From a bacterium (GTDB lineage: Bacteria > CAYTYR01 > UBA6262), in the NCBI GenBank assembly GCA_028712895.1, contig JAQTPL010000023.1, positions 1 through 32,394 of the forward strand: a stretch of DNA of 32,394 bases, in the 5' to 3' direction. A model generated the notes under the pieces. That model was not told the DNA's origin and made no database searches. It saw only the letters and a list, made by a program, of their open reading frames with translations. Made by a program: the position numbers and the translations under genes. Positions 1,673-32,356 of the stretch are shown piece after piece. Each line of letters starts with the position of its first letter. Within the stretch, counting starts at the first letter, position 1.

Positions 1673-1732
1673 TGTCAAAATGTCAATGTGTCAGAGTGTC
1701 AAAGATTTTTACTGATCCTCTTTTGTGACACT
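1673..1732. repeat. Octamer tandem array with inverted copy (cysE-ispF gap)
   Basis: Four contiguous 8-bp units of the form TGTCARNR occupy 1673-1704 (TGTCAAAA, TGTCAATG and so on). An inverted copy TTTTGTGACACT follows at 1721-1732. The last unit and the inverted copy can pair with a small bulge. The unit on the minus strand contains TTGACA, so the array creates several -35-like hexamers, but I see no -10 at the right distance. Confidence 0.75.
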
Positions 1733-2208
1733 TATTTTCTGTTCAGACTGACGATAGCCAGCGCGGCTATCGCCTGGCCCTTGCCGATGAAACCTACGCC
1801 TTCATTGGTAGTCGCTTTAATGCCAATACAATTTTTTCGCATCTTAAGCACCCCGGCAATATTTTTCTTTATCTGTTCGACATACTTCCCGATCTTAGGC
1901 GCTTCCGCCAGCACCACTATATCAATGTTGCTGGGATGGTATTTATGTTTTTTGATAATACGCAAGGTCTGGCTGAGTAATTCCAAGCTGGAAATCCCCT
2001 GGTACGTATCATCTGTAGTCGGGAAATGATAGCCGATATCCCTTTCGCCAACAGCTCCAAGCAGGGCATCACAGACAGCGTGCAATAAGACATCAGCATC
2101 AGAATGGCCTAGTAACCCTTTGGTGAAAGGAATCTTGACTCCGCCTAAAAACAGTTTACGGCCTTTTACCAACCGGTGGATATCATAACCTAATCCAATT
2201 TTATACAT
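1732..2208 (-). CDS. ispF: 2-C-methyl-D-erythritol 2,4-cyclodiphosphate synthase
   Basis: Cyclises CDP-methylerythritol 2-phosphate to MEcPP in the non-mevalonate isoprenoid pathway. It has 158 residues, the normal family length. The metal-binding DIHRL motif is at residues 9-13, GHSDADVLLHAVCDALLGA follows, and TNEGVGFIGKGQ with AALA near the C-terminus is the family signature. The ATG abuts the ispD stop codon (TAA then ATG), so the two are translationally coupled; ispD and ispF catalyse non-consecutive steps of the same pathway. ispE, the step between them, is at 22.1-23.0 kb in this same window. Confidence 0.97.
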   Translation of the reverse strand: MYKIGLGYDIHRLVKGRKLFLGGVKIPFTKGLLGHSDADVLLHAVCDALLGAVGERDIGYHFPTTDDTYQGISSLELLSQTLRIIKKHKYHPSNIDIVVLAEAPKIGKYVEQIKKNIAGVLKMRKNCIGIKATTNEGVGFIGKGQAIAALAIVSLNRK

Positions 2209-2889
2209 TTAATCCTTTCGTAACAATTTTTCTGCCAGGAACAGGTCTATGGGGGTAGTTATTTTCAGGTTATCATAGCTACCTGGTACAATTTTTACTT
2301 TTTTCCCCAACCGTTCTATCAGCATGGCATCGTCAGTGCCATAAAACTTCTGCTGGCAAGCCTGCTTATAGGCTTTCATAATCAATTTATAATCAAAAAT
2401 CTGAGGTGTTTGTATACTCCATAGGTTATAACGATCAATAGTTTTGTTTACGAAAGCTTTATCATTTCCTGCTTTGATCGTATCCTTGACCGGTACTGCC
2501 GCAATAGCTGCCCCATATTTTTTTGCTGCAGCCACAGTATCTTGAATAACTTGCAGCGGGACCAAGCAGCGGACACCATCATGGATGCAAACCAGATCAC
2601 AGGGTTGAATGCCCTTTAATCCATGGTATACTGAATCCTGGCGTTCTTTGCCTCCCACAACCAGTGTTACGTGGTTGAATTTATACTTTTTAATAATATT
2701 TTGCTGGCAATACTGCCGGAAATCTCGATGTATTACTACTATAATTTCATTAAATAGGCCACTCTTAATAAATCTTTGCAGGGTATGCCAAAGAACAGGC
2801 TTGCCGGCCAGGGCCAGGAATTGCTTGGGTTTAAGGTAATTCATGCGCTTTCCTAAGCCAGCCGCCACTATTACCGCTGCTATCTTCAT
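2209..2889 (-). CDS. ispD: 2-C-methyl-D-erythritol 4-phosphate cytidylyltransferase
   Basis: Makes CDP-methylerythritol from MEP and CTP. It has 226 residues, typical for the family. The nucleotide-binding loop AAGLGKRM and the following KPKQFLALAGKPVLWHTL are canonical; VCIHDGVRCLVP and KDTIK also match the family. GGA stands 6 nt before the ATG, which lies within an ATGA overlap with the yacL stop. The order yacL-ispD-ispF is the Firmicutes order. Confidence 0.97.
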   Translation of the reverse strand: MKIAAVIVAAGLGKRMNYLKPKQFLALAGKPVLWHTLQRFIKSGLFNEIIVVIHRDFRQYCQQNIIKKYKFNHVTLVVGGKERQDSVYHGLKGIQPCDLVCIHDGVRCLVPLQVIQDTVAAAKKYGAAIAAVPVKDTIKAGNDKAFVNKTIDRYNLWSIQTPQIFDYKLIMKAYKQACQQKFYGTDDAMLIERLGKKVKIVPGSYDNLKITTPIDLFLAEKLLRKD

Positions 2890-3869
2890 TTGTCTTCCTT
2901 ACTCTTGAGCCGGGTAAAAATCATCCTGCCGGCAGTTGTCTGCAAAACACTGGTGACCACTACTTCAAGTTTTTCACCAATCTTTTTACGGCCTTCTTCC
3001 ACAACGACCATGGTACCATCTTCTAAATAGGCAATACCCTGGCTATGCTCTTTCCCTTCCTTCACCACCATTACCTGCATCATTTCGCCGGGAATGACCA
3101 TTGGCTTCACAGCATTGGATAATTCATTAACATTCAGCACTATTACACCGCTCAGCGCAGCGATCTTATTCAAATTAAAATCAGTGGTGATGACTTTTGC
3201 TTTGAGCTCAGTCGCCAGTTTGACTATTTTAATATCTGCTTCTGCTGTTTCCGGGTAATCTTTTTCAAAGATGCGCAGCTGGATATTCTTGTTTTCTTGC
3301 AGCCGGTTCAATATCTCTAATCCTCTGCGGCCGCGACTGCGCTTCATGCTGTCCCCGCTATCGGCTACGGTTTGCAGCTCCTTTAAAATAAAACGCGGAA
3401 CGATAAAAACTCCATCCAGGAATTTGGCGTCGCAGACGTCGGCAATCCTGCCATCGATGATCGCGCTGGTATCCAGTATTTTCAGGTCTTGTCCTTTTAC
3501 GGCTTTGGAAATATTCTGGTCCAGTAAATTCAGCTCTTCTTTTTTTCGGATAGCTATGAGGAGGCCAAAATAGCCAAAAGCCATTTTAATAAGAATAGAA
3601 TAAGGCATATATAAATCAGTGAGATTTTGATTCCCTATCAAGCTTACTGCATAATCAAGCAATTTAGCACCGATCAAACCAATAATAGCCCCTAAAATGC
3701 CAGCTACCAGATCATCCAGGGGGATTTTCTCGATCATCATTTCGATGATAATTATCCCTGCGGCTACGGCTGTGCCTAAAAGGACCCCTTGCGGTCCTTC
3801 ACCCCATTGGAAATAACCAATAATCGGGCCAGCGATGACCACTAACAATCTAATCATCCAGATAATCAT
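2886..3869 (-). CDS. yacL: YacL-family membrane protein with PIN and TRAM domains
   Basis: Inner-membrane protein of 327 residues. About four hydrophobic segments lie before residue 110. A PIN nuclease-like domain covers about residues 128-250 (ILDTSAIIDGR, with candidate metal ligands D133, E164, D212 and D230). A C-terminal TRAM domain covers about 257-325. The four acidic PIN residues are all present, so a ribonuclease activity is plausible, but the physiological role of the family is not established. Bacillus yacL stands directly downstream of disA; here disA is absent and radA is the upstream neighbour. Confidence 0.9.
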   Translation of the reverse strand: MIIWMIRLLVVIAGPIIGYFQWGEGPQGVLLGTAVAAGIIIIEMMIEKIPLDDLVAGILGAIIGLIGAKLLDYAVSLIGNQNLTDLYMPYSILIKMAFGYFGLLIAIRKKEELNLLDQNISKAVKGQDLKILDTSAIIDGRIADVCDAKFLDGVFIVPRFILKELQTVADSGDSMKRSRGRRGLEILNRLQENKNIQLRIFEKDYPETAEADIKIVKLATELKAKVITTDFNLNKIAALSGVIVLNVNELSNAVKPMVIPGEMMQVMVVKEGKEHSQGIAYLEDGTMVVVEEGRKKIGEKLEVVVTSVLQTTAGRMIFTRLKSKEDK

Positions 3870-3890
3870 ATTTTTTCACCACCCTTCTCC

Positions 3891-3965
3891 TAGCGTTTAG
3901 CGGGTAGCGTTAAGCGTATAGGAAAACACTTTCGCCCTATCCGCTATACGCTATACGCTTTGCGC
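3891..3965. repeat. Heptamer array in inverted arms, TAGCGTA type (yacL-radA gap)
   Basis: Arm one (3891-3922) is a run of 7-bp units of the form TAGCGTT or TAGCGGG. Arm two (3936-3965) holds the same unit inverted (reverse complement TAGCGTA, TAGCGGA). The arms can pair around a short loop at about 3923-3935. A second array built from the same words lies at 12990-13062. There is no T-tract, so this is not an ordinary intrinsic terminator. Confidence 0.8.
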
Positions 3966-3971
3966 CTCTCG

Positions 3972-5336
3972 TTATTTTTTCAAGCAGAAATCGATTGCTT
4001 CGCGAATAGTCTTCACGCCAATCACATCTATTTTACTCTTCAGAGCCTGCGCTTCTTTCATATTGCCGGCAGGTATGACTGCCTGCTTGAAACCAAGCTT
4101 CGCTGCTTCCTGCAGGCGTTCTTTAGCGAAGTTAATCGCCCTAACCTCTCCGCTTAATCCCACTTCACCCATCGCCACCGTCAGTTTATCTATGGGTATA
4201 TTGCGCAGGGCACTGGCCACTGCACAGATGAGTCCCAGGTCACTGGCTGGCTCGTCTATTTCTATCCCGCCAACCACGTTGACAAAAACATCCTGGTTTC
4301 CCAAATGCATACCTAAACGTTTTTCCATTACTGCCATCAGCAGCAAGACCCGGTTATAATCAATTCCCTGAACCTGGCGCCTGGCTACCGGCAGGTATGT
4401 GCTGGTTACCAGGCTCTGCAGTTCTACGAGCAGGGGCCTGGTTCCTTCCAGACTGACTACCACTACCGTACCGCTGGCAGTTTCATTGCGCTCACTTAAC
4501 AGCACTTCAGAGGGATTGAGGACTTCAGCCAGCCCCTTTTCCTGCATCGTAAAAATACCTATTTCGTTAGTCGAACCAAACCGGTTTTTTACGGCGCGCA
4601 AAATACGGTAATTATGCTGAACATCACCTTCAAAATACAAAACTGTATCGACCATATGTTCCAGCACCCGGGGACCGGCGATCTCTCCCACCTTGGTCAC
4701 ATGGCCGCAAATAAAAGTGGCGATCGTATGGCCTTTAGCCAGGTTCATTAATTGGAAAGTACATTCCCTGACCTGGCCAACACTTCCCGGGGCACTTGGC
4801 AGATCAGGATCATACAGCGTTTGGATAGAATCAATGAACAGGAACTTTGGATTAAGCTTTTTGCAGTATTCAATAACTTGCTGGATATTGGTCTCACTGA
4901 CTAAATACAATTGTTCGCTGGCCACCCCCAGTCGTTCTGCCCGTAATTTTATCTGCTGGGGAGATTCCTCACCGGAAATATAGAGGATTGCTCCCCGTCG
5001 GCTCAAAGGCTGGGCAACCTGCAGAAGCAATGTAGACTTACCGATACCCGGTGCTCCGCCGATCAAAACCAGTGATCCAGGAACTATCCCGCCACCGACG
5101 ATCCGGTCAAACTCGCCTATCCCGGTAGGCACCCTGTCTACATCAATAGATCTTATTTGCGACAGAGTTTGAGGCGTGCCGGCAATCTGTGTATGACTGG
5201 CTTTATGCTTGACCGGAGCGACTACTTTCTCCTCAACCAGCGTATTCCATTTGCCACAATCCGGGCATTTACCCATCCAATTGATCGCTTCATACCCACA
5301 TTCCTGACAGCGAAAAATAATTTTGTCCTTAACCAT
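3972..5336 (-). CDS. radA: DNA repair protein RadA/Sms
   Basis: RecA-related ATPase that promotes branch migration of recombination intermediates. It has 454 residues, the full family length. The N-terminal zinc finger uses C10, C13, C24 and C27. Walker A is GGAPGIGK at 93-100, Walker B is in FLFIDSIQ, and the RadA-specific KNRFG motif is at 250-254. The C-terminal third is the Lon-protease-like domain (GGIEIDEPASDLG). Its ribosome binding site (GAGTGGG) lies at the edge of a GTTTTGA-type array. In Bacillus radA is followed by disA; here it is followed directly by yacL. Confidence 0.97.
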   Translation of the reverse strand: MVKDKIIFRCQECGYEAINWMGKCPDCGKWNTLVEEKVVAPVKHKASHTQIAGTPQTLSQIRSIDVDRVPTGIGEFDRIVGGGIVPGSLVLIGGAPGIGKSTLLLQVAQPLSRRGAILYISGEESPQQIKLRAERLGVASEQLYLVSETNIQQVIEYCKKLNPKFLFIDSIQTLYDPDLPSAPGSVGQVRECTFQLMNLAKGHTIATFICGHVTKVGEIAGPRVLEHMVDTVLYFEGDVQHNYRILRAVKNRFGSTNEIGIFTMQEKGLAEVLNPSEVLLSERNETASGTVVVVSLEGTRPLLVELQSLVTSTYLPVARRQVQGIDYNRVLLLMAVMEKRLGMHLGNQDVFVNVVGGIEIDEPASDLGLICAVASALRNIPIDKLTVAMGEVGLSGEVRAINFAKERLQEAAKLGFKQAVIPAGNMKEAQALKSKIDVIGVKTIREAIDFCLKK

Positions 5337-5344
5337 TAAAACCC

Positions 5345-5490
5345 ACTCAAAATCAGTTTTGAATTTTCCCCTGCTGATTTGTTTAAGGACAAATCAAAGC
5401 CGTGGGGACAGGTAAGTTTTGAGTTTTGAATTGAGGATGTATCTAATAAAAATTGTCCTTCACTCAAAATTTAACACTCAAAACTCAACA
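5345..5490. repeat. Heptamer array, GTTTTGA type, with nested hairpin (radA-mlaD gap)
   Basis: Two perfect GTTTTGA units stand at 5416-5429. Inverted, more degenerate units occupy 5461-5490 (ACTCAAAA, ACTCAAAACTCAAC), and further ACTCAAAA and TTTTGA words lie at 5345-5366. Nested between them, 5375-5396 is a perfect 8-bp inverted repeat (TGATTTGT, 6-nt loop). Flanking CCCC and GGGG runs could extend that fold imperfectly. The same GTTTTGA word recurs at 19611-19690. Confidence 0.75.
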
Positions 5491-5495
5491 TTGCT

Positions 5496-6908
5496 TTATT
5501 TAGCTATCGATGACAATCCTGATAACCCCAGGAAGTAGGCAATATCTTCATCTTCCACTACCAGGTTCATAGTCGCGGTAAAACTGCGCTGTTCCAGGAT
5601 ATCTTCATAAGTTGCCCTTAAGTTAATATTATTAGTTACTTTAAATACCGCGCCGGTATTAACCCAGGCTTTATTCTTATCATTAATTTTACGGTCGAAG
5701 CGGAAAGCTTCGGCATTAAATTCAAGCCGGTCGCTCTTAGGAATAGGACGCCAACCTGCACCAAACCCACCGGTGGACCGGATAAACCCTCCGTACAAGG
5801 TAAATGGTCCGAAATCCTTACCCAACTCCGCCGTAATACTGTTATATTTCTGGTCACCAGCATCATATTTAATGGTTTCACCAGTCACCAGATCATGCGG
5901 CCGTTCGCCTTTAATATTGTTGATGGCAAAATAATAGAACTTATCCGGCTTAGGCCTGATCCTGATACCAAAATCGCTGCGGGTTAGGGTATCTTCACTG
6001 TTATAATTCAAGCGATAATCCCAATAGGTCTTAAAATTGCTCACGCGGGCTAAAAGTTTTTTGGCTTCATCAGACGCGCCTCTCAGGCTGGAGACAGTTC
6101 CCTTGACATCGTCAGCCATCTGCTCATCATTCACCAGTTTGCCCAGCGTACCTTGTCCGCTTTCGATCTTAGCGGCGATATTATTCAGTGATGTCAACGC
6201 TGCATCCAGTTTCACGCTAATACTTTTGAAATTCTCCATGGTTGTTTTCAGGTCTTCCTTGGATACAGCACCACTCAAGTCATCAAGTTTGGCTGCGACC
6301 TGGTTAATGCGGACTGAGAACTGCTCAAAATTTTCAACAATACTGTCAATACTCTGGTCCTTATCGGCTAACAGAGTATTAACTTTTTCCATGACTGAAT
6401 TGACATTGATAAATATTTTTTTCAAAGAATCTTTCATTTCCTTATCACCGGTAAATTCCTTAACAGCATCAGCCAGGGAGGTAAATCCTTTTAATCCTTC
6501 ATTCACTACTTTATCAAAGCTTATCGGATCGATACCGATCAGCATATCGCCTTCTTTTAAAGGCCGGTCTGATTTTGTACCTAAGAACAGTTCCAGGTAC
6601 TTAGTACCGATCAGGCCGGTAGAGGCAATAGTGGCCCTGGCATCATGGAAAACCGACAGGCTACCTTTGATCCACAGGGTAACCTGGGCTTTGCCCTTGA
6701 CCAGATCTACTTCTGTGACCTCGCCAATCTGCACACCGGCAGTTTTAACCGGGGCCCTGACCTGCAGGCCACTGATATCATTAAACAAGACCTTAATGGT
6801 ATAGCCGCGCTCCAAACGAAAATCACCAACTAAAAGAATAGCTGCTGCTAAAAGCACTAAACTGACCATAACCAGCAATCCTACTTTAGTTTCCTGGCTT
6901 AAGCCCAT
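5496..6908 (-). CDS. mlaD: MlaD-like MCE protein with beta-rich C-terminal domain
   Basis: Substrate-binding protein of the Mla phospholipid transport system, anchored in the inner membrane. The 470 residues comprise a membrane segment (about 12-29), an MCE domain (about 34-116, with GLQVRAPVKTAGVQIGEV), a long helical region (about 130-290, with the GQGTLGKLVND motif common in MCE proteins), and a C-terminal domain (about 295-470) of alternating short strands rich in Tyr, Phe and Gly that resembles a small outer-membrane barrel. E. coli MlaD is only about 180 residues. The start at 6908 is supported by GGAG 6 nt upstream; the frame extends upstream to 6935 without support. The domain assignment of the C-terminus is inference. 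Confidence 0.88.
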   Translation of the reverse strand: MGLSQETKVGLLVMVSLVLLAAAILLVGDFRLERGYTIKVLFNDISGLQVRAPVKTAGVQIGEVTEVDLVKGKAQVTLWIKGSLSVFHDARATIASTGLIGTKYLELFLGTKSDRPLKEGDMLIGIDPISFDKVVNEGLKGFTSLADAVKEFTGDKEMKDSLKKIFINVNSVMEKVNTLLADKDQSIDSIVENFEQFSVRINQVAAKLDDLSGAVSKEDLKTTMENFKSISVKLDAALTSLNNIAAKIESGQGTLGKLVNDEQMADDVKGTVSSLRGASDEAKKLLARVSNFKTYWDYRLNYNSEDTLTRSDFGIRIRPKPDKFYYFAINNIKGERPHDLVTGETIKYDAGDQKYNSITAELGKDFGPFTLYGGFIRSTGGFGAGWRPIPKSDRLEFNAEAFRFDRKINDKNKAWVNTGAVFKVTNNINLRATYEDILEQRSFTATMNLVVEDEDIAYFLGLSGLSSIAK

Positions 6909-6930
6909 GTAATTCTCCTTTAAATACACA

Positions 6931-6986
6931 GTCAAAACGAAAAACCGTCAAAACGAGAAACAGTTGCCGGTAAGAATGAAAAACAG
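6931..6986. repeat. Short tandem repeat of period 16 (mlaF-mlaD gap)
   Basis: GTCAAAACGA occurs at 6931-6940 and again at 6947-6956, each followed by a GAAAAAC or GAGAAAC word; GAAAAACAG recurs at 6978-6986. On the minus strand the unit carries TTGAC. One TTGACG is followed after 17 nt by TGTATT, a weak promoter-like pair upstream of mlaD. I do not see a strong inverted arm here. Confidence 0.55.
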
Positions 6987-7000
6987 TATTACTTTTTAAA

Positions 7001-7759: not shown

Positions 7760-7760
7760 A

Positions 7761-8645
7761 TTAACCGATCCCGATAAACTGCAGGATATTGGTGAGAAAG
7801 GTATCAGTGACCAGGATAAGCACCATGGAAATAACCACTGACTGGGTAGTAGCCTTGCCTACTCCTTCTGCCCCGCCTTCAGTCGTAAATCCCTTATAGC
7901 AGCTGATCAAAGCAATAATAATACCAAATACCACGCATTTGATCAGGCCATGAATAATATCCTTGCCGCGCATAAAGTCAATAATATCATGATAATACCT
8001 GGTTGAAGGGATAGCCATTTTATACACGCTGACAAAGAACCCGCCAATAATGCCCAATATATTTGAAAAGACAGTCAATACAGGCACCATTACCACGCAA
8101 GACAAAAAACGCGGGACCACCAGGTATTTGACCGGATTGGCGCCCAGGGTATACAGGGCATCGATCTGTTCCGTTACCCGCATTGTTCCCAGTTCGGCAG
8201 TAATAGCCGCTCCTACCCGTCCGGCAATTACAATAGAAGTTAATACCGGCCCTAGTTCCTTAACCATGGAAAAACCGACAGCAGTTCCCACATAGAGCGG
8301 TTCCCCGAGAATATTTTTAGAAGCGGCGCCCATTTGCAGAGCCAGGACCATCCCGACTGACACACTGGTCAAAGAAGTGACCACCAGCGAATTGACCCCT
8401 ATTTCGTTCATTTGCTTATTGATATTTTTAAGGTCATAAGGCCGGCGGAAAGTCCAAAATATGATCTGGAAAAAAAGCAGTACTAGTTTACCGATATGAT
8501 CGGCAATCCCAACTATGTACTTGCCTAGAAATTTAATAAATTTGTCTTCCTCAAGACGTTCCTCTAATTTTTGTTCCAGGCTTTCACCTGGCAAATGCTT
8601 ATGCACTTTAGACTCCAGCCACTTGGCTCGTAGCTCGTAGCTCAT
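7761..8645 (-). CDS. mlaE: Mla-type ABC transporter permease
   Basis: Integral membrane subunit of the Mla transporter. The protein is 294 residues if started at the ATG at 8645, with an N-terminal amphipathic segment, about five membrane helices and the family motifs ELGPVLTSIVIAGRVGAAITAELGT (residues about 135-160 region) and EQIDALYTLGANP. The first seven residues from this ATG (MSYELRA) are encoded by an intergenic heptamer array and the ATG has no clear ribosome binding site. A GTG at 8606 has GGAG 6 nt upstream and gives 281 residues; this may be the true start. It is followed by mlaF and mlaD, with alr upstream. Confidence 0.92.
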   Translation of the reverse strand: MSYELRAKWLESKVHKHLPGESLEQKLEERLEEDKFIKFLGKYIVGIADHIGKLVLLFFQIIFWTFRRPYDLKNINKQMNEIGVNSLVVTSLTSVSVGMVLALQMGAASKNILGEPLYVGTAVGFSMVKELGPVLTSIVIAGRVGAAITAELGTMRVTEQIDALYTLGANPVKYLVVPRFLSCVVMVPVLTVFSNILGIIGGFFVSVYKMAIPSTRYYHDIIDFMRGKDIIHGLIKCVVFGIIIALISCYKGFTTEGGAEGVGKATTQSVVISMVLILVTDTFLTNILQFIGIG

Positions 8646-8695
8646 AGTAATGTTTCGCCTACGAGCTAACAGCTATGAACTAAGAGCTATATTTA
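8627..8695. repeat. Heptamer array, TAGCTCG type, overlapping both flanking genes
   Basis: Plus-strand units TAGCTCG and TAGCTCA occupy about 8627-8650. Inverted units (reverse complement TAGCTCG, TAGCTGT, TAGTTCA, TAGCTCT) occupy about 8659-8692. The array covers the annotated mlaE ATG on one side and the TAG stop and last codons of alr (8680-8682) on the other. Confidence 0.8.
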
Positions 8696-9801: not shown

Positions 9802-9831
9802 CGCCTTCTCCTTAGCGGTTACTGTACCTGT

Positions 9832-11208: not shown

Positions 11209-11230
11209 AAACTTACCTTTCCACAGGGAC

Positions 11231-11674: not shown

Positions 11675-11690
11675 TAATCCTCCAATATTA

Positions 11691-11744
11691 GTCGCTGGTC
11701 GCTGGTTACTAGTTAAAACTATTTAAACTAGCTGATAGCAACTG
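11691..11744. repeat. Heptamer array, GTCGCTG type (yybS-rplI gap)
   Basis: Two perfect GTCGCTG units at 11691-11704 are followed by GTTACTA and GTTAAAA. An inverted, degenerate arm lies at 11722-11744 (reverse complement begins CAGTTGCTATCAGC). The TAG stop of the upstream membrane protein (11728-11730) and its last four residues are read from this arm. Confidence 0.7.
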
Positions 11745-12681: not shown

Positions 12682-12683
12682 CT

Positions 12684-12968: not shown

Positions 12969-12989
12969 TAAACTTCCCCCTTATTAATC

Positions 12990-13062
12990 AGCGTATAGCG
13001 GGTAGCGTTTAGCGTATAGATCTTGTTTTTCTATCCGCTTTACGCTCTACGCTTAACGCTAG
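12990..13062. repeat. Heptamer array in inverted arms, TAGCGTA type (rpsR-ssb gap)
   Basis: Arm one (12990-13021) has units AGCGTA, TAGCGGG, TAGCGTT and TAGCGTA. Arm two (13031-13062) carries the inverted units. The unit order in arm one (GCGGG then TAGCGTT) is the same as in the array at 3891, so the two arrays are related and not merely similar in composition. The loop is about 9 nt and T-rich. Confidence 0.8.
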
Positions 13063-13064
13063 TT

Positions 13065-13505: not shown

Positions 13506-13509
13506 GTAA

Positions 13510-13872: not shown

Positions 13873-13931
13873 CCTGCTCAACCTCCTCATAATGTGAAAC
13901 TGGATTATTATATGTAAACGCTCATTATCGA

Positions 13932-13972
13932 CCGGATACCTGCCTTGTTGCCTCAGCCGACAGGTTACCCGG
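13932..13972 (-). promoter_or_regulatory. Candidate S6:S18-binding leader hairpin of rpsF
   Basis: The rpsF leader RNA (about 118 nt) contains a 41-nt stem-loop. An outer CCGG pairs with CCGG and an inner ACCTGTC pairs with GGCAGGT, separated by a small internal bulge. The 3' side reads GGTATCCGG, reminiscent of the 16S rRNA site bound by S6 and S18. Leaders of this kind bound by the S6:S18 complex are known upstream of rpsF. The fold is visible; the regulatory role is inferred. Confidence 0.4.
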
Positions 13973-13996
13973 AATAAACGTACCATATCTTTGTTA

Positions 13997-14025
13997 ATTC
14001 TACTATAGAAACTGCCTTTTGGCAA
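13997..14025 (-). promoter_or_regulatory. Sigma70-type promoter for rpsF operon
   Basis: TTGCCA (14025-14020) and TAGAAT (14002-13997) are separated by exactly 17 nt, each with one mismatch to consensus. Transcription would begin near 13990 and read rpsF, ssb and onward. The gap 13873-14097 (225 bp) is the longest in the window and the only long one without a tandem array. Confidence 0.7.
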
Positions 14026-14097
14026 GGTATTTAACCACTTAAGATCCGAGAATTGGCCTTTTTCGTCATATTCTCACAACCAATCCCGGAACTTGAG

Positions 14098-16152: not shown

Positions 16153-16198
16153 AATACTTTGTTCCTCCTCTTGTTATTTTTAATACTTCCGTAAGATA

Positions 16199-16762: not shown

Positions 16763-16778
16763 TTTAAACCTCGTCAAT

Positions 16779-16883
16779 CGGTTACGGGGACGAGGCCCGA
16801 TTAAAGCTTTCTTTTCGGGTCTCGTATCCGTTTACCGTGCACCTAGTTTCTATTCGGGCTTCGTTACCGTATATCGTATACCG
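16779..16883. repeat. Heptamer arrays, GGTATAC type, three arms (pth-ctc gap)
   Basis: Arm 16779-16800 (begins CGGTTACGG, ends GGCCCGA) is nearly complementary to 16815-16837 (begins TCGGGTCTCG, ends TTTACCG), with a 14-nt loop. A third related arm lies at about 16854-16883. Read on the minus strand the units fall in a 7-bp register (GGTATAC, GATATAC, GGTAACG, AAGCCCG). No T-tract follows. Confidence 0.75.
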
Positions 16884-16887
16884 AGAG

Positions 16888-17604: not shown

Positions 17605-17625
17605 CAGCTTTCTCCTCCTTTTTTA

Positions 17626-17660
17626 TCGTACGAAAATCCTTTTTTTTATGTCGTACGGCT
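17626..17660. repeat. Short direct repeat of palindromic CGTACGA (GGDEF-ctc gap)
   Basis: Two CGTACGA-type palindromes, at about 17627-17633 and 17651-17657, are each followed on the minus strand by an A-run and GGA. The distal one supplies the ctc ribosome binding site region and the proximal one the last codons of the GGDEF gene (ending RTT). The 41-bp gap therefore looks like a direct duplication of about 24 bp. Confidence 0.5.
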
Positions 17661-19592: not shown

Positions 19593-19610
19593 GTGACCTC
19601 AAACAACTGC

Positions 19611-19690
19611 AGTTTTGAGTTAGAAGTTTTAACTTATAAATTAAGGTTTAATTACCATAATTCAAAACTCAAAATTCAAAATTTATAACT
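19611..19690. repeat. Heptamer array, GTTTTGA type, in inverted arms (GGDEF-prs gap)
   Basis: Three perfect 7-bp units TTCAAAA, CTCAAAA and TTCAAAA stand at 19661-19681. The inverted arm is at 19611-19640 (begins AGTTTTGAGTTAG). It uses the same word as the array at 5416-5490. The gap between the arms is A/T-rich. Confidence 0.75.
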
Positions 19691-19695
19691 GTCTC

Positions 19696-20637: not shown

Positions 20638-20668
20638 AGTATCCTCCTGGAGTTTGTTGTAGGGGTGA

Positions 20669-20743
20669 GAAGTAAGTTTGGTCTGAGGTCGTTAGGCCTG
20701 GGCTTTAAACTACAAACTTTAGACTTACTTCTATACTTACTTC
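20669..20743. repeat. Dispersed palindromic element A, copy 1 (prs-glmU gap)
   Basis: This 75-bp element begins GAAGTAAGTTTGGTC and ends ATACTTACTTC. The ends are complementary, so it can fold on itself. It shares at least 57 aligned identical positions with copy 2 at 22999-23074, and copy 3 at 31383-31457 is in reverse orientation. The upstream glmU-like gene ends (TAG, 20750-20752) in repeat-like sequence just beyond it. Confidence 0.8.
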
Positions 20744-20749
20744 CACAAC

Positions 20750-21502: not shown

Positions 21503-21544
21503 GCAAATTCCTTTAACTAAATGCTGGGAATAGGGTTTAGTGAG

Positions 21545-21584
21545 TAGAGAAAGTGCAACCACGACTCAGGTTGCACTTTCTCTA
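21545..21584 (-). terminator. Perfect 16-bp hairpin downstream of tRNA-Gln
   Basis: TAGAGAAAGTGCAACC at 21545-21560 pairs perfectly with 21569-21584 around an 8-nt loop. It begins 20 nt after the tRNA 3' end and lies before the glmU-like gene. There is no T-tract after it on either strand, so factor-independent termination is doubtful; it may mark the tRNA 3' trailer for processing or be a mobile palindrome. Confidence 0.5.
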
Positions 21585-21603
21585 AAATTATCCCTCATAA
21601 CTC

Positions 21604-21675
21604 CTCTGGGGCTAGGACTCGAACCTAGAACAGGAGATCCAAAGTCTCCGGTGTTACCAATTACACCACCCCAGA
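21604..21675 (-). tRNA. tRNA-Gln (anticodon TTG)
   Basis: A 72-nt cloverleaf reads cleanly on the minus strand. The acceptor stem TCTGGGG pairs with CCCCAGA; the D-arm is GTGT with ACAC; the anticodon stem GGAGA/TCTCC encloses CTTTGGA, giving anticodon TTG; the T-arm CTAGG TTCGAGT CCTAG is canonical. The discriminator base is G and CCA is not encoded. It lies between spoVG and the glmU-like gene. Confidence 0.96.
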
Positions 21676-21680
21676 ATAAA

Positions 21681-21765
21681 TACGCTTATAGAATTAGAAA
21701 CGCTTATAGCGAATGGTCTATGCGTATAGCAGAAGCATTATTGTCTTGTTTCCGCTATTAGCTAC
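21681..21765. repeat. Degenerate TAGCGNA-type array upstream of tRNA-Gln
   Basis: ACGCTTATAG occurs twice (21682-21691 and 21700-21709). An inverted relative CTATGCGTATAGC is at 21718-21730 and TCCGCTATTAGCTA at 21751-21764. Read on the minus strand the last part gives 7-bp units TAGCTAA and TAGCGGA. The spoVG stop TAG (21762-21764) is the start of this array. Confidence 0.6.
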
Positions 21766-22058: not shown

Positions 22059-22076
22059 GCTGTCCACCATCCCCCA

Positions 22077-22961: not shown

Positions 22962-22998
22962 ACACCCTTCTTAATCAAGTTATTGGGTATTGGGTTTG

Positions 22999-23074
22999 GA
23001 AGTAAGTTTGGTCCAAGGTCTTTGGAAGTTAGGATTTAAACCACAAACTTCAGACCTCCTTCCATACTTACTTC
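22999..23074. repeat. Dispersed palindromic element A, copy 2 (ispE-LolB gap)
   Basis: A 76-bp element with the same ends as copy 1 (GAAGTAAG at the left, CTTACTTC at the right) and the same inner words TTTGGTC, AGGTC and TTTAAAC. It lies in the ispE upstream region, 38 bp before the ispE start on the minus strand. Confidence 0.8.
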
Positions 23075-23090
23075 TAAAACCTACAACCAA

Positions 23091-23861: not shown

Positions 23862-23890
23862 GTTAGTTCCTTTAGTAAACAGGGTTAGGG

Positions 23891-24002
23891 TATCAGGTAA
23901 TCAGGGGAACAGGAAGTGGGCATCAGGATAACAGGAAATCAGGTTTTCTTGATAACCTGATCTTCTGATTACCTCTCCCTGATAACCAGATAACCTGATA
24001 GT
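23891..24002. repeat. Octamer array, ATCAGGTT type, in inverted arms (TPR-LolB gap)
   Basis: Arm one (23891-23943) has repeated ATCAGG words with 8-bp spacing in places. Arm two (23950-24001) is inverted: on the minus strand it reads ATCAGGTT, ATCTGGTT, ATCAGGGA and further related words. The two arms can form a long imperfect hairpin with a short loop. It is the longest array in the window. Confidence 0.8.
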
Positions 24003-24008
24003 CTTAAC

Positions 24009-25682: not shown

Positions 25683-25699
25683 TATTCCACTCGTATAAA

Positions 25700-27963: not shown

Positions 27964-28028
27964 TACTGACCTCTCCTAAATGTTGTTAGATCAAATACGA
28001 ATGATACAAGATATAGTATAGCTATTTA

Positions 28029-28057
28029 ATTATATGCTTATTGTTTTAGTTTGTAAA
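28029..28057 (-). promoter_or_regulatory. Sigma70-type promoter for pilMN operon
   Basis: TTTACA (28057-28052) and a perfect TATAAT (28034-28029) are 17 nt apart. Transcription would start near 28022, giving a leader of about 58 nt to the TTG start. The operon would include pilMN, pilO and the TPR gene. Confidence 0.75.
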
Positions 28058-28065
28058 GTTAAAAA

Positions 28066-28154
28066 TAGTCACGAGTCTCTGGTCAACGGGTCCCGAGTCA
28101 AGGTAATATATATGAATAATAAACTAGACTCGCGAACTCGAAACTCGCAGACCT
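28066..28154. repeat. Heptamer array, CGAGTTT type, in inverted arms (pilX-like/pilMN gap)
   Basis: Arm one (28066-28103) carries CGAGTCT, GGGTCCC and CGAGTC words. Arm two (28123-28154) on the minus strand reads GCGAGTT, TCGAGTT and CGCGAGT at 7-bp spacing. The arms are partly complementary around a TA-rich loop. It lies between the stop of the propeller gene and the pilMN promoter, the position of a terminator, but no T-tract follows. Confidence 0.75.
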
Positions 28155-28157
28155 GTT

Positions 28158-29672
28158 TTAGAATGTATCCCGCCAGGATTCTGTCAATACTGTCATAGTC
28201 CCGGTCGGGGTGACCTGGCTGGCGAATTTATAAAGACGGTTGCTGTCAGAACCGATATACAGGTTATTGCCATAAATAGCCGGGGAAGAATCGACATTGC
28301 CCTGGGTGTTATAACGATAGCGGCGGCTCAGGTTACTGATATTAAGCGCGACCACATAATTATCATCATTACCGACAAAGAGCTGGTCATTTTGCACCGC
28401 CGGGGTAGAGTCAACCGCGTGACTGGTATTATAGCTGTCTACCTGCCGGCCATCCCGGCAGCGGAATTGATATAATCTCCTGGTGCCTGATCCTACGAAA
28501 ATACTGTCCTCTTCCGGCGAATAAACCGGAGACGACTGAATATCTCCGTAGCTCCTCCTGGCGATCCAATGCCACCAGCCGGAAGGATCAAAAGAAACAA
28601 CTGTTCCGCCCATTGAGCATTGGTAAATAAAAGTACCGCCGCCATATGGCTGGCCATGCCAGTACCAATAACCGCTTTCGGAAACACAAGCCGTGCTTCT
28701 GACCGCTCCATCCATATCTTCCGGCCACCCCGGTACCAAGCTCGCCGTAACCAGGTTAATGGCATAGAAATAACTGTTGTCCGCGCCAATATATAATACA
28801 CCAGCAGCAGTGTCAATGGCCGGAGAAGAGTAGATAGCTACATTATTACTGATCAGGAAAGGCCAGCCCACTTTAATATTTCCGGTTTCATAGTCAAAAG
28901 CATAAACCCTGCCATCATCACAGGCAGTATAGATCACGTCATCAACCGCGCACGGCGAAGCCCGCCAGGGACGCAAAACAGCGGGATTACGGTAGCGCCA
29001 GACCAGGGCGCCGGTAGTCAGATTGAGGCAATAAAAATAACCGTCGAGTGAACCAACATAGACATAATTTTTGTAAATGCACGGCGAGGACAGCACATCA
29101 TTGCCGGTGGTATAGGACCAGATAAACCCGCCATCTGATGCCCGGATACAATAAACCTTATTATCGTCACAACCAAAGACTACCCGGCTCTTGTCCACCG
29201 CGGGAGAAGAATTGATATCGCCGCCCGCGGTATAATACCATTTCTCATCCAACTCACGGGCTACGATATGCTGCGGGAAACTATAACCGGTCCGCTCCGG
29301 GCAATACTTGAACATAGGCCAGTTGCCCATCAGGATCCTGACCCGCAAAGTCTTTTGCACCCCTTTATAAGTGCCAACGGATTTCAATTGCACTGTTCCC
29401 CCATCGCCGTCCTCCAGGGTGACCGTGAAACTACCGCCGTTAAAACTCATGGTCGCGCCGGTGCGCCAGCTGGAATCATAATCCAGCTGCGGCAGGGACC
29501 AGCTTAATCCCGCTTCCGCGATATATAAAGCAATAGTCGTATTCTCGGAACCAGCGGCCATGCGCACATCAGTGGTCAGGATATTAATAAATAGCAATCC
29601 CAGGAGTAAAACAAAAAGCACTATCCCGATAGCCATAATGAGTATCGCGCCGCGTTTATTCTTCAGATACAC
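28158..29672 (-). CDS. PilX-like minor pilin fused to eight-repeat beta-propeller
   Basis: It has 504 residues. Residues 1-8 (MYLKNKRG) are a short prepilin leader; the following hydrophobic helix AILIMAIGIVLFVLLLGLLF lacks Glu at position 5, like PilX and GspK proteins. About 125-495 is a PQQ-type beta-propeller: eight repeats marked by SSPA-like motifs (NSSPAV, LSSPCI, RASPCA, YSSPAI, RSTACV, QSSPVY, DSTPAV, DSSPAI) and AxDGxxxW-type blade ends. PilY1 carries a propeller as a separate tip adhesin that works with PilX; here one polypeptide seems to combine both. The start is GTG at 29672 with GAGG 5 nt upstream. It would be the last gene of the minor-pilin operon. Confidence 0.85.
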   Translation of the reverse strand: MYLKNKRGAILIMAIGIVLFVLLLGLLFINILTTDVRMAAGSENTTIALYIAEAGLSWSLPQLDYDSSWRTGATMSFNGGSFTVTLEDGDGGTVQLKSVGTYKGVQKTLRVRILMGNWPMFKYCPERTGYSFPQHIVARELDEKWYYTAGGDINSSPAVDKSRVVFGCDDNKVYCIRASDGGFIWSYTTGNDVLSSPCIYKNYVYVGSLDGYFYCLNLTTGALVWRYRNPAVLRPWRASPCAVDDVIYTACDDGRVYAFDYETGNIKVGWPFLISNNVAIYSSPAIDTAAGVLYIGADNSYFYAINLVTASLVPGWPEDMDGAVRSTACVSESGYWYWHGQPYGGGTFIYQCSMGGTVVSFDPSGWWHWIARRSYGDIQSSPVYSPEEDSIFVGSGTRRLYQFRCRDGRQVDSYNTSHAVDSTPAVQNDQLFVGNDDNYVVALNISNLSRRYRYNTQGNVDSSPAIYGNNLYIGSDSNRLYKFASQVTPTGTMTVLTESWRDTF

Positions 29673-29683
29673 TTTAACCTCGT

Positions 29684-30268
29684 TTATTGTTGCGGTTTAT
29701 TCCTGGGAAATACTTTTGTCGCCAGATTAACGGTCTGAGCGTTATTGGCCACTCGTATCCTAATGGCGATCTGCCCTTCATATTCTAAAGTAAAATATAA
29801 TTTAGTAACATAAGTCGCTACTACGTTAGTATCTGACCCGCCGGCAGCATAGGTCACTGTACGCTGCAGATCCCCATTGAGCTGCGGCTCATACCGTACT
29901 GTCTGCATATCATCAGGGTTTTCCAGTTCCAGCGGCGCGCTGAAATCGATCCGGTCACGATTAGCATCAAGCGTAGTAATGGTAATGGTGGAAATATCCG
30001 CCTGCCTGATCTCCCGGGCCATTTTTTCCGTCGCTGTGCGGGCCTGTTGGACAATATTTGTTTGCACATCCTGGTACTTATACGCATTGGTTGTCTCGCG
30101 CAGGATATCATACAGGACTATCACTATCAGACTGATAATGACAATGGCGATGATAAACTCTACACCACTCAAACCTTTTTTATTGCGAATTAAGCGAATG
30201 TTAGCGAATTTCGCTAATAAAAATGCTTTATTCGAGATATTAGCTATCATTCGAGTTATTCGGCTCAT
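29684..30268 (-). CDS. PilW-like minor pilin with unusually long leader
   Basis: It has 194 residues. The class III cleavage site is RNKKG followed by LSGVEFIIAIVIISL, with Glu at mature position 5 and a membrane helix after it. The middle contains RTATEKMAREIRQADIS, typical of PilW/PulJ-type minor pilins. The leader is 32 residues, against the usual 6-15, and most of it (ANISNKAFLLAKFANIRLI) is read from repeat-like DNA at 30181-30262. The ATG overlaps the previous stop (TAATG) and AGGAAA lies about 6 nt upstream. No alternative ATG, GTG or TTG lies nearer the cleavage site, only Met7. Confidence 0.85.
   Translation of the reverse strand: MSRITRMIANISNKAFLLAKFANIRLIRNKKGLSGVEFIIAIVIISLIVIVLYDILRETTNAYKYQDVQTNIVQQARTATEKMAREIRQADISTITITTLDANRDRIDFSAPLELENPDDMQTVRYEPQLNGDLQRTVTYAAGGSDTNVVATYVTKLYFTLEYEGQIAIRIRVANNAQTVNLATKVFPRNKPQQ
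30181..30262. repeat. Repeat-like words inside the PilW-type leader
   Basis: GCGAAT occurs at 30185, 30194 and 30203. A 17-bp perfect palindrome TTAGCGAATTTCGCTAA occupies 30201-30217. TTCGAG occurs at 30231 and 30250. This resembles the intergenic arrays but lies within an open frame with no stop; the 7-bp period is not clear here. Confidence 0.55.
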
Positions 30269-30795
30269 TAATAGTTTCCTTTGATCGCCCGCAGCACTAC
30301 GCTTTGCGTGTCATTTTCCCAGGATACGGTCACAGTAACACGTTTGAATCTCGTTATTGATGTTGACACCAGGTCGAGATTAGTTTCACTGACATAATCA
30401 ACGATCACTCTTCTCCTAAACCCGGTATACTCTGTCATTATTGTATTATCCACTTCCCTGGGAGGGCTCTCGTTAAAGCCGTCAAAATCGTCAACATCGT
30501 CATAGTTCCTGTTGGTCGGATTCCCCGCCCGCGTCTCCAGACCATCTGGGCCTAAACGGGATGTCGTATCCGGACTCGTCGGGTCTTCATCAAATTTTTT
30601 GCACATTATCTCTTCCATCAGATCCTGCGCCAGCATATTAGCCACGGTGATCTTCTGGGGATCCTTGCCTCTTTTTACGCCCTGCCCCAAGACGGTTATC
30701 AGCGGTACCAGCGCTACCGTGATCACTACCACCGCGACCAGGATTTCAGCGAGCGTAAACCCGGCTATTTCGTTGGATAATTTAAATAATCTCAT
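30268..30795 (-). CDS. PilV-like type IV pilus minor pilin
   Basis: It has 175 residues. The leader MRLFKLSNEIAG is followed by FTLAEILVAVVVITVALVPL, with Glu5 and a membrane helix, the class III pilin pattern. LAQDLMEEI and the late FRRRVIVDYV and VTVTVSW segments resemble PilV/GspI proteins. A hydrophilic Asp/Asn-rich region (residues about 70-115) with DDVDDFDGF could bind a metal. GGGA precedes the ATG. It would act in pilus priming or at the tip with its neighbours. Confidence 0.85.
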   Translation of the reverse strand: MRLFKLSNEIAGFTLAEILVAVVVITVALVPLITVLGQGVKRGKDPQKITVANMLAQDLMEEIMCKKFDEDPTSPDTTSRLGPDGLETRAGNPTNRNYDDVDDFDGFNESPPREVDNTIMTEYTGFRRRVIVDYVSETNLDLVSTSITRFKRVTVTVSWENDTQSVVLRAIKGNY

Positions 30796-30813
30796 TGAGA
30801 TATTCCCTGGATG

Positions 30814-30845
30814 ATTTCGCGGATTTCAAAAACTATTTCGCGGAT
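30814..30845. repeat. 11-bp direct repeat between two pilin genes
   Basis: ATTTCGCGGAT occurs at 30814-30824 and 30835-30845, 21 bp apart (three times 7). It fills most of the 52-bp gap between the FimT-like stop and the PilV-like start. Confidence 0.6.
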
Positions 30846-30847
30846 AG

Positions 30848-31339
30848 TCATGGTTTGGTCCAATAGGCGCGGCCGGTATTGTCTTCCACCCAGACAGAAT
30901 AGGAATCAGCACCATATTGCAGTACGGCTTTACCGCCGCTCGTGTTGCGACCCAAGGGATCAAATTCTATATACTCTGTCCCAGACGGGAAACCCGCCGA
31001 AACAAGATCGACATTATGGTGCTCCCCTTTAGTAAAATCACGGATCATGGGTTTACGATGGACGGGATCAGTGATGGGAGTGCTAAAAGTATTGGTATAA
31101 ACAATATACTTTTCTTGCGCCGGGTAAAAAATAACACCACTTTTTACCTGGGTGGTTTCAGCGGTTTTCTTGGCCAACATAATATCAGATACCAGCAACC
31201 TTGAGGCAGCTTTAGCCCGGTAGCTGAAAATCCCGGTCATGGAGATAAGCAGCACCGCGGTCAGGAACCCTATCAGTGCCAGCATGACCATGGTTTCAAC
31301 CAGGGTAAATCCCTTTTTTTTAAATATCCTAATTATCAT
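30848..31339 (-). CDS. FimT/GspH-like minor pilin
   Basis: It has 163 residues. The leader MIIRIFKKKG precedes GFTLVETMVMLALIGFL, the canonical class III site with Glu5. The body has the GspH-like beta-rich C-terminal domain (AAQEKYIVYTNTF-like strands, then GTEYIEFDPLGR and GADSYSVWVEDNTGR). It is the first pilin gene after the promoter at 31490-31518. AGGA lies about 10 nt before the ATG. Confidence 0.87.
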   Translation of the reverse strand: MIIRIFKKKGFTLVETMVMLALIGFLTAVLLISMTGIFSYRAKAASRLLVSDIMLAKKTAETTQVKSGVIFYPAQEKYIVYTNTFSTPITDPVHRKPMIRDFTKGEHHNVDLVSAGFPSGTEYIEFDPLGRNTSGGKAVLQYGADSYSVWVEDNTGRAYWTKP

Positions 31340-31382
31340 ATTTGTACTATCCTAGGTATATAGAAGTATGTTATTAGTTATG

Positions 31383-31457
31383 GAAGTAGGTATAGAAGTA
31401 GGTCTGAAGTTTATGGTTTTGAGCTTACACCCCTACACCATAGACTAAACTTACTTC
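31383..31457. repeat. Dispersed palindromic element A, copy 3, reversed
   Basis: A 75-bp element whose reverse complement begins GAAGTAAGTTTAGTC and ends ACCTACTTC, matching copies 1 and 2. It lies in the predicted 5' untranslated leader (about 144 nt) of the minor-pilin operon. Confidence 0.75.
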
Positions 31458-31489
31458 TTAACCTAACACCCAAATGCTAACTATAAGAA

Positions 31490-31518
31490 ATTGTACCTAA
31501 ATTAAAGGTTATTTTCAA
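31490..31518 (-). promoter_or_regulatory. Sigma70-type promoter for minor-pilin operon
   Basis: TTGAAA (31518-31513) and TACAAT (31495-31490) are exactly 17 nt apart, one mismatch each to consensus. The -35 box overlaps the last codons of the glycosyltransferase gene. Transcription would start near 31483. Confidence 0.65.
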
Positions 31519-32257
31519 CTTTTTTAAATATTTTAAAATTTCCCAGATGAAGTTTTTGCAAGACAAATTTCCCGACAACAGCTACGGTAGCTAAGCCATA
31601 AATAGCCGAGTTCAGGAAATTAATAGATGAAGCTTCCTTAAAATAGCGCGCCGGCACAGGCGTCTCTCCCAGCCGGAATCCGAAATAAACCGCTTCGGCC
31701 AGAAACTCCGTGTCAAACACGAAGTTATTAGAATTATTCTGCCAGGGGATAGTTTCCAACACTTTCCTGGTATACGCCCTGAACCCGGTATGAAACTCGC
31801 TTAAGTTCTGTCCGAAAAAAATATTTTCAAAGAGAGTAAGAGCCCGGTTGCTGATATATTTATACAACGGCATGCCGCCAGCCAAAGCCTCTGCCCTGGT
31901 CCTGATCCTGGATCCCAGCATGACATCATACAACCCATCGGTTAATGGTTTGATCATATAGGGAATTAGGCTGGAATCATATTGGTAATCAGGATGGACC
32001 ATCACTACAATATCAGCGCCTTGCTCCAATGCTTTTTGGTAGCAGGTTTTCTGATTACCGCCGTAACCCAGATTTTTTTCATGCGCAAATACCTGTAATC
32101 CTAATTCCCGGGCCATACTTACCGTATTATCGCCGCTGGCATCGTCTACAACAATAATTCCATCAACTATCCCGGGGGGGATATCCTGTACTGTCTTGGC
32201 AATAGTTTTACCAGCATTATAGGCAGGCATAACTACGATTATTTTTGGTTTCACCAT
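31502..32257 (-). CDS. GT2-family glycosyltransferase, dolichol-phosphate-mannose synthase-like
   Basis: It has 251 residues when started at MVKPKIIVVMPAYNAG (32257), where GGAGG is 4 nt upstream; a start at 32332 runs through a repeat and is rejected. The GT-A fold motifs are PAYNAGKTI, IVVDDASGDNT, EKNLGYGGNQK and MVHPDYQYD (a DxD-like position), followed by GSRIRTRAEALAGGMP and SEFHTGFRAYTR. This pattern matches enzymes that transfer sugars from nucleotide to lipid carriers or glycan acceptors; the sugar and acceptor are unknown. The C-terminus is hydrophobic (AIYGLATVAVVGKFVLQ), suggesting membrane contact. Confidence 0.9.
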   Translation of the reverse strand: MVKPKIIVVMPAYNAGKTIAKTVQDIPPGIVDGIIVVDDASGDNTVSMARELGLQVFAHEKNLGYGGNQKTCYQKALEQGADIVVMVHPDYQYDSSLIPYMIKPLTDGLYDVMLGSRIRTRAEALAGGMPLYKYISNRALTLFENIFFGQNLSEFHTGFRAYTRKVLETIPWQNNSNNFVFDTEFLAEAVYFGFRLGETPVPARYFKEASSINFLNSAIYGLATVAVVGKFVLQKLHLGNFKIFKKVENNL

Positions 32258-32269
32258 CAATCCTCCCTT

Positions 32270-32290
32270 AATTTTTGCCTTGCAAAAATT
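32270..32290 (-). promoter_or_regulatory. Hairpin just upstream of glycosyltransferase start
   Basis: AATTTTTGC pairs perfectly with GCAAAAATT around a 3-nt loop. On the minus strand it ends 3 nt before the GGGAGG ribosome binding site. It could influence translation; no T-tract marks it as a terminator. Confidence 0.4.
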
Positions 32291-32299
32291 GGAGCAGTC

Positions 32300-32356
32300 G
32301 AAATTAGAAATTAGAAAGTAGATTGCGGCCAACTTTCAAATCTCAATTCTTAATAG
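32300..32356. repeat. Heptamer array, GAAATTA type, in inverted arms
   Basis: Two perfect GAAATTA units at 32300-32313 are followed by GAAAGTA. The inverted arm is at 32334-32356 (minus-strand units GAATTGA and GATTTGA). It has the same design as the other arrays. Confidence 0.7.

Follow-up and report, generated by a model that had tools for sequence, protein, structure and literature searches.

Inverted arrays of seven- and eight-base words in the intergenic spacers of an uncultured Elusimicrobia genome, probably mobile palindromic DNA elements

Repeat arrays in the intergenic gaps of the window

The stretch under study is the 32,394-nt contig JAQTPL010000023.1 (hereafter the window), a complete contig, numbered C32, of an uncultured Elusimicrobia genome (G000; 1.93 Mb in 75 contigs), whose closest named relatives over one protein are the Elusimicrobia metagenome assemblies UBA6262 (97%), NC_groundwater_1672 (94%) and fen_1175 (89%). 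Many of the spacers between its genes hold a short element in which two inverted arrays of one degenerate 7-bp word flank a core, and we read these elements as probably mobile. Genes were called with our own dicodon model, so gap boundaries are approximate; at 1673-1732, 8627-8695, 12990-13062 and 32300-32356 arrays are visible, but the gene caller did not score these sites as gaps. Stem detection scored Watson-Crick pairs only, so both strands were handled alike, and no element is assigned a strand.

Several words recur along the window. The TAGCGTA family forms a palindrome at 3895-3962 (arms 3899-3922 and 3936-3959), in a gap (3858-3971) with a lag-7 p of 0.01, a fold z of -3.4 and a stem score of 14, and another of about 72 bp at 12990-13062, where Tandem Repeats Finder (TRF) reported 12990-13019 and 13036-13060; a degenerate TAGCG-type element (21676-21761) lies by the tRNA gene that Rfam places at 21604-21675. 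Arms of the AGTTTTG family at 19610-19647 and 19654-19691 make up the palindrome 19610-19691 (gap 19593-19695, p 0.01, stem 15), and arrays of this family at 5345-5490 (gap 5337-5495, lag-7 p 0.03, fold z -3.2) enclose an unrelated palindromic stretch (CCCCTGCTGATTTG...). The GAAGTAAG family is represented by an element at 20638-20749 (family 6 in the clustering, stem 10) and by palindromes at 22983-23090 (arms 22983-23021 and 23052-23090; gap 22962-23090, p 0.01, z -2.9, stem 19) and 31353-31465 (arms 31353-31390 and 31432-31465; stem 17). Further 7-bp words build the TAGCTCG palindrome at 8627-8695 (TRF 8626-8647), a GTCGCTG array at 11691-11731 whose stem is not significant (gap 11675-11727, lag-7 p 0.01, fold z 0.2), the GGTATAC/CCGTAAC palindrome at 16770-16885 (arms 16770-16808 and 16845-16885; gap 16763-16887, p 0.04, fold z -3.2, stem 15), a CGAGTTT array pair at 28091-28135 (arms 28091-28111 and 28116-28135; lag-7 p 0.06, stem 10) and, at 32300-32356, a GAAATTA array with an inverted partner (TRF 32300-32322). 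Units of 8 bp occur at 1673-1732, where an array of TGTCAAAA/GTGTCAAA is joined by a short inverted arm, GTGACAC (TRF rows 1671-1704 and the sequence itself), and in the ATCAGG palindrome at 23884-24008 (arms 23884-23941 and 23950-24008; gap 23862-24008, lag-8 p 0.01, z -2.9, stem 24). A 16-bp repeat, GTCAAAACGAAAAACC, occupies 6913-6961 in two near copies and a diverged third with a weak stem (TRF, stem score 7), and the 16-bp register that a sequence-only reading of the window had proposed proved real in the two copies at 6931-6961.

That reading had placed an array in nearly every gap. Arrays do stand at most of the sites it listed, and most window gaps longer than 50 bp contain one, but the claim was overstated: spacers shorter than about 50 bp have no 7- or 8-bp array, nor do 13873-14097, 16153-16198, 17605-17645 and 30796-30847, some of which are longer.

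Seven-base periodicity and folding across the genome

The statistics below draw on 1.18 of the 1.93 Mb of G000 and on 0.48 Mb of its sister species G001; the phylum was sampled by five genomes (G000-G004), one per species and all metagenome-assembled. In 326 G000 gaps, taken from 822 kb, identity at lag 7 was 0.318, whereas shuffles that keep the dinucleotide composition gave 0.271 (z 27.5; coding control 0.253), with harmonics at lag 14 (z 13.0) and lag 21 (z 6.3) and weaker peaks at lag 8 (z 4.7) and lag 16 (z 3.4). The lag-7/8 excess implied by the sequence-only reading is thus genuine. Taken singly, 28% of the gaps were significant at lag 7 (p<=0.05), compared with 3-4% at most control lags. 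Folding exceeded the shuffles (fold z < -2) in 42% of gaps and in 8 of 8 convergent gaps; the arrays at 11675-11727 and 6909-7000 have no significant stem.

The arrays were also expected in independent assemblies, and there they were found: lag 7 reached z 22.8 in G001 and z 5.6 in G002. At gap 3858-3971 the sequences of G000 and G001 are almost the same, and G002 has a shortened version. Single 20-kb stretches taken from other genomes, 20 in all and each of low power, mostly lacked a lag-7 excess, and we rejected the idea that such arrays are a general bacterial feature.

Periodicity depended on gene orientation. Lag-7 identity in G000 was 0.420 versus 0.267 in shuffles for convergent gaps (9 gaps), 0.318 versus 0.271 for co-directional gaps (426) and 0.287 versus 0.276, not significant, for divergent gaps (14), convergent and divergent gaps being few. 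The same ranking was seen in G001, strong in convergent, intermediate in co-directional and absent in divergent gaps. Co-directional stems began a median of 7 nt past the stop codon and ended 21 nt ahead of the start codon. Such 3'-end placement can mean a function at 3' ends or plain tolerance where no promoter is hit. Gene orientation is itself extremely co-directional, with 1019 of 1055 adjacent G000 pairs on the same strand, which recalls the one-strand replichores of Borgs; G001 contigs are alike.

Word families, dispersal and turnover between sister species

Single-linkage clustering of gaps gave the families TAGCGTA, AGTTTTG, GTCGCTA, ATCAGG (8 bp), GATTACAC, CGAATnn (9-10 bp), GAAGTAAG, CGGTATA/CCGTAAC, TAGCTCG and AAATCCTAATATC. 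Copies within a family agree in unit order and loop, beyond the word itself; the window element at 22983-23090, for example, is 79-85% identical to copies in L085. The observation that the word differs by gap therefore holds for the several words of the window, but the same words come back in dispersed families. Of the 756 gaps with a length of at least 35 bp in the G000 and G001 sequence covered, 464 (61%) share sequence with another gap at E<=1e-4; at E<1e-5 significant pairs numbered 572 and involved 223 of the 513 G000 gaps. Because BLAST E-values are optimistic on low-complexity sequence, permutation and reversed controls were applied. Pairs no more than 10 kb apart numbered 30 against 9.5 by permutation, and 12 against 2.2 in the stringent set (p<=0.0005 each). 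Matches to the words TAGCG, GTCGCT, TTTTGAG, TAGCTC and GATTACAC fall almost entirely in the roughly 10% of DNA that is non-coding. A triple pattern of ATCAGG matched 32 times in G001, twice in G000 and once in G002, numbers that point to a lineage burst.

Turnover was followed in orthologous G000/G001 gaps of at least 35 bp, defined by reciprocal best hits (median 91% protein identity). Elements occupied both species in 62 gaps (39 with unrelated and 23 with similar content), one species in 37 and neither in 45. The gap 16763-16887 carries GGTATAC in G000 and ATCAGG in G001, and 19593-19695 carries AGTTTTG in G000 and TAGCGTA in G001; at slot 12990 three species hold TAGCGTA, AGTTTTG and CAGCGTT. 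The 72-bp element at 12990-13062 reappears with near-identical arms and loop in the G001 orthologue of another gap (19593-19695). In G001 the slot at 5345-5490 holds a GATTACA-type array, that at 6913-6961 paired arrays of 16-mers and that at 28091-28135 an ATCAGG element. The element at 21676-21761 is missing there, only a few bases lying between stop codon and tRNA, as is the one at 31353-31465 from its orthologous gap. The element at 3895-3962 has orthologous copies in G001 and G002 and another word (AAGTGTA) in G003, and in the orthologues of 11691-11731 in G001 and G002 the arms are paired. Short gaps free of elements, such as 17605-17645 and 16153-16198, remain alignable between species. 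Similar copies thus stand at non-orthologous sites and orthologous sites differ in presence or absence, the pattern of a dispersed mobile repeat. At the G001 position orthologous to 8646-8679 stands an element of the CCGTAAC type, and the sequence after it resembles the TAGCTCG element that G000 has, an order that suggests overwriting. A candidate before/after pair with a conserved terminator (G000 C28:9336 versus G001 C14:7994) was dropped, since only one flanking gene was orthologous.

Repeats of other kinds were noticed as well. Other palindromes (CCCCTGCTGATTTG..., TCCGCCTGAGGCGGA...) are nested in heptamer arrays at window positions 5360-5415, L030:7594-7722 and L087:4621-4735. A separate family of about 270 bp with long inverted ends (CCTGTCTCCTAAATC...GATTTAGGAGACAGG), 71-89% identical among copies (L026:6955-7223, L028:18915-19193, L022:9067-9357 and, in G001, L098:15862-16142), at one site has no copy in the G001 orthologue and looks like a conventional miniature inverted-repeat transposable element (MITE) or structured element. 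Downstream of the tRNA gene (window 21503-21761; L091 in G001, L092 in G003), the G001 and G003 gaps repeat the 3' end of the tRNA (GTCCTAGCCCCAGAG) in additional copies with a palindrome between, resembling integration remnants at a tRNA or a partial tRNA duplication.

Occurrence outside the genus and phylum

The ATCAGG family, with many members in G001, extends beyond the phylum. Its element profile matched G098, related at the level of domain only, over 125 bp (E 1.1e-20; reversed controls empty). The matching element (L209/L221, G098:C6) adjoins GGAATTTGGTGCTTGG, which belongs to a 22-base string shared with G005. For ATCAGG, transfer is likelier than convergence. Further 7-8-bp word arrays occur in L204 of the 1.4-Mb G098 genome, which may have the same phenomenon. 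Exact GATTACAC triples were found in 5 of 241 sampled genomes, one of them with an inverted partner, and GAATTTGGTGCTTGGAATTTGG in 2; among the genomes sampled, TAGCGTA and GTCGCT occurred in the genus only. Nine other word families had no homologue by nhmmer in 678 kb of foreign loci, and a plasmid BLAST with one family gave no match.

Origin of the elements

Our best reading is that the arrays are mobile DNA-level palindromic elements of about 50-130 bp, in dispersed families and REPIN- or MITE-like in their working (REP, repetitive extragenic palindrome; REPIN, a hairpin-forming REP doublet), and we consider it probable. It starts from what is observed: word families, the copying of whole elements, dispersal and local clustering, 3'-end placement, rapid replacement between sister species, symmetric mismatches and one 125-bp homologue beyond the phylum. 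Under this reading a degenerate word of 7 bp, in some cases of 8 or 16 bp, would be repeated in two inverted arrays on either side of a short core. Arms and core would be copied together into spacers, mainly in the interval from a stop codon to the ribosome-binding site that follows it and often near an existing copy; the copies would subsequently decay without selection on pairing, be deleted or give way to an element of another word. Copying may be transposition-like, through a hairpin single-stranded intermediate, with slippage perhaps setting the 7-bp register. As a rule there is one element per gap, and gaps with two different families make up 10% compared with 40% under a Poisson rule.

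The only candidate enzyme found is the REP-associated tyrosine transposase (RAYT), and copying by host replication alone is possible. RAYT-type Y1 transposases with a DnaA C-terminal-like part occur in G000 (L175, on C13), G001 (L176 and L178) and G002 (L177), and one without that part in G003; none was found in G004. A reverse transcriptase motor was rejected, PF00078 having no match in the 5 genomes while controls were positive.

Several results weigh against mobile elements. The longest match between flanks was 3.44, equal to the permuted value (225 elements), and the REP tags were not enriched (GTAG 12 versus 14.4 expected, CGTC 2 versus 3.1), so neither target duplication nor tag provides a positive transposase signature. 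Element ends are shared in part, with AAACAG at the 5' end 17 times against 6 and GTATTT (34 against 10) and CTGTTT (15 against 5) at the 3' end, none of them universal; a universal terminal motif (AAACAGTT...AACTGTTT, TAAATAC...GTATTTA) was a by-eye impression that we discarded in view of this modest enrichment. In the stretches read, the RAYT genes are flanked by GGGACGTTG-type repeats rather than by heptamer arrays, and with the tags also missing RAYT was rejected as a proven motor. Under a loose pattern, matches of ATCAGG and CCGTAACCG within called genes are about equal in number to those between genes or exceed them. Selection for short spacers could also account for the low two-family rate, and a comparison of filled and empty gaps cannot always separate insertion from deletion.

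A serious rival, which we nevertheless judge unlikely, is a by-product of replication, in which an inverted repeat seeds 7-bp polymerase slippage and template switching. Arrays would then form on the spot, and gaps would come to resemble each other by ectopic template switching or by gene conversion between forks that lie close together. The dominance of 7 bp suits the general heptanucleotide excess in bacteria and the polymerase-slippage idea, which a later paper credits to Mrazek 2007 (PMC4679880), and local clustering, symmetric strands and the missing target duplication fit as well. Slippage, one of the origins proposed by the sequence-only reading, probably contributes to the 7-bp register. 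Alone, however, it does not explain near-identical copies of arms and loop, unit order included, that occupy unrelated gaps and recur in another species, nor the homologue beyond the phylum; moreover, 85% of the stem score is retained when the units of one arm are shuffled, indicating that the arms are not exact snap-back copies, an origin we ruled out on this result. Of that reading's proposals the selfish element fits best, given dispersed families, replacement, clustering, bursts and the cross-phylum homologue; that it uses only host replication is less certain, RAYT transposases being present but not linked to the arrays.

A role in RNA, with hairpins in the transcript serving mRNA termination, processing or stabilisation at 3' ends within long co-directional runs, is improbable as an explanation. 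The strong 3'-end placement and the excess folding speak for this RNA punctuation, but tolerance accounts equally well for the placement. On the transcribed strand, co-directional stems of G000 and G001 have 291 G.U and 291 A.C mismatches; G.U would be in excess had RNA pairing been under selection, and no sign of such selection is seen, while this strand-symmetric pattern fits a DNA-level process. Between 17 similar orthologous stems, 2 compensatory changes stand against 59 one-sided or broken Watson-Crick changes (19 A.C, 12 G.U, 28 other), so neither mark of a functional RNA hairpin, compensatory change or sense-strand G.U, distinguishes these stems. The T-tract that an intrinsic (Rho-independent) terminator has right behind the 3' arm is missing, as already remarked from the window: the T fraction there is 0.32 versus 0.37 on the other strand, and TTTT occurs in 15% versus 11% antisense. 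Several convergent gaps (G000 C2:1257, C3:8576, C10:11812 and C20:5205; G001 C16:37822) contain ordinary T-tailed terminators, placed between the arms or next to them, and an Rfam scan of the window returned tRNA and no other RNA family. On the wobble, compensation and T-tract tests we rejected a terminator or stabiliser, and with it the punctuation role raised earlier; the hairpins look like decaying products rather than maintained RNA parts, though they may have weak effects on transcripts. As a separate observation, transition-type mismatches in these stems place the purine in the 5' arm and the pyrimidine in the 3' arm 403 times against 179 for the reverse, both strands alike.

It is more doubtful still that the palindromes are REP doublets proper, moved by the RAYT-DnaA-C proteins of this genus. 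RAYT-family Y1 proteins are present in four of the species, REPs have a like placement and single-stranded hairpin form (PMC3733652, PMC3116915) and a Y1 enzyme is compatible with the missing target duplication; against this, the stem foot has no GTAG or CGTC tag, different repeats flank the RAYT genes and many word families face few RAYTs. An assembly artefact of metagenome binning has a negligible chance although every genome involved is metagenome-assembled, because separately published assemblies of different origin contain the same arrays, in one gap almost letter for letter, and for the main pattern it is refuted.

Significance and comparison with known systems

A large share of the intergenic DNA of this genus consists of elements that switch identity between sister species whose proteins are still about 91% identical. 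If the elements move, they are an abundant, undescribed route of bacterial spacer rewriting; if they arise by replication, slippage in 7-bp steps and template switching have left a natural record in them. In both cases, long imperfect 3'-end hairpins in uncultured genomes should not be called terminators from structure alone, and the comparison of sense-strand G.U with A.C is a simple general control for hairpin-RNA claims. We tentatively suggest that the elements could form a distinct bacterial class in which an architecture is conserved rather than a sequence, namely a pair of inverted arrays, built on a freely varying 7-8-bp word, around a core. A still undescribed copying process would rewrite one and the same intergenic slot with different words and would carry such elements from one phylum to another.

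REPs are defined in part by placement downstream of genes, in co-directional and convergent spacers (PMC3733652). The present elements share this placement and, with REPs and REPINs, the form of short dispersed palindromes (PMC3733652, PMC3116915) that fall into several families within a genome; in neither was a target duplication found, and RAYT genes occur in this genus. They differ in that the GTAG/CGTC tag is missing, the arms consist of tandem arrays of 7-8-bp units, word families are numerous, one element takes the place of another in the same gap from one sister species to the next, and the RAYT genes are flanked by other repeats. Like MITEs they are short, non-coding and dispersed with inverted ends, but they have no target-site duplication, apparently no fixed terminal sequence common to the families and no matched parent transposase.

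Heptamer families as such are already known. The sequence-only reading took cyanobacterial arrays as the nearest analogue; that analogue exists, but a partly similar precedent lies beyond cyanobacteria in Geobacter metallireducens, which has heptanucleotide families such as GGGACCG repeated four times in 49 places and MTYCTGA repeated five times (PMC2700814). These too are multicopy short tandem-heptanucleotide elements with several families per genome, some classes as opposed site pairs; they differ in being described as putative regulator-binding sites, some within genes, and gap-by-gap replacement is not reported in the text consulted. The TAACTGA arrays of Beggiatoaceae and the cyanobacterial heptamer arrays are likewise intergenic and patchy across phyla, but consist of a single word, head-to-tail, near start codons and without palindromic pairing (PMC4679880). 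A text search with the word strings returned no paper on bacterial repeats, and we found no description of free words, inverted arrays and same-gap replacement together in the searchable literature. Borg tandem repeats share many different words in one genome, fast evolution and genes nearly all on one strand, whereas theirs are perfect, of longer units, also present in open reading frames and not palindromic (PMC9879509).

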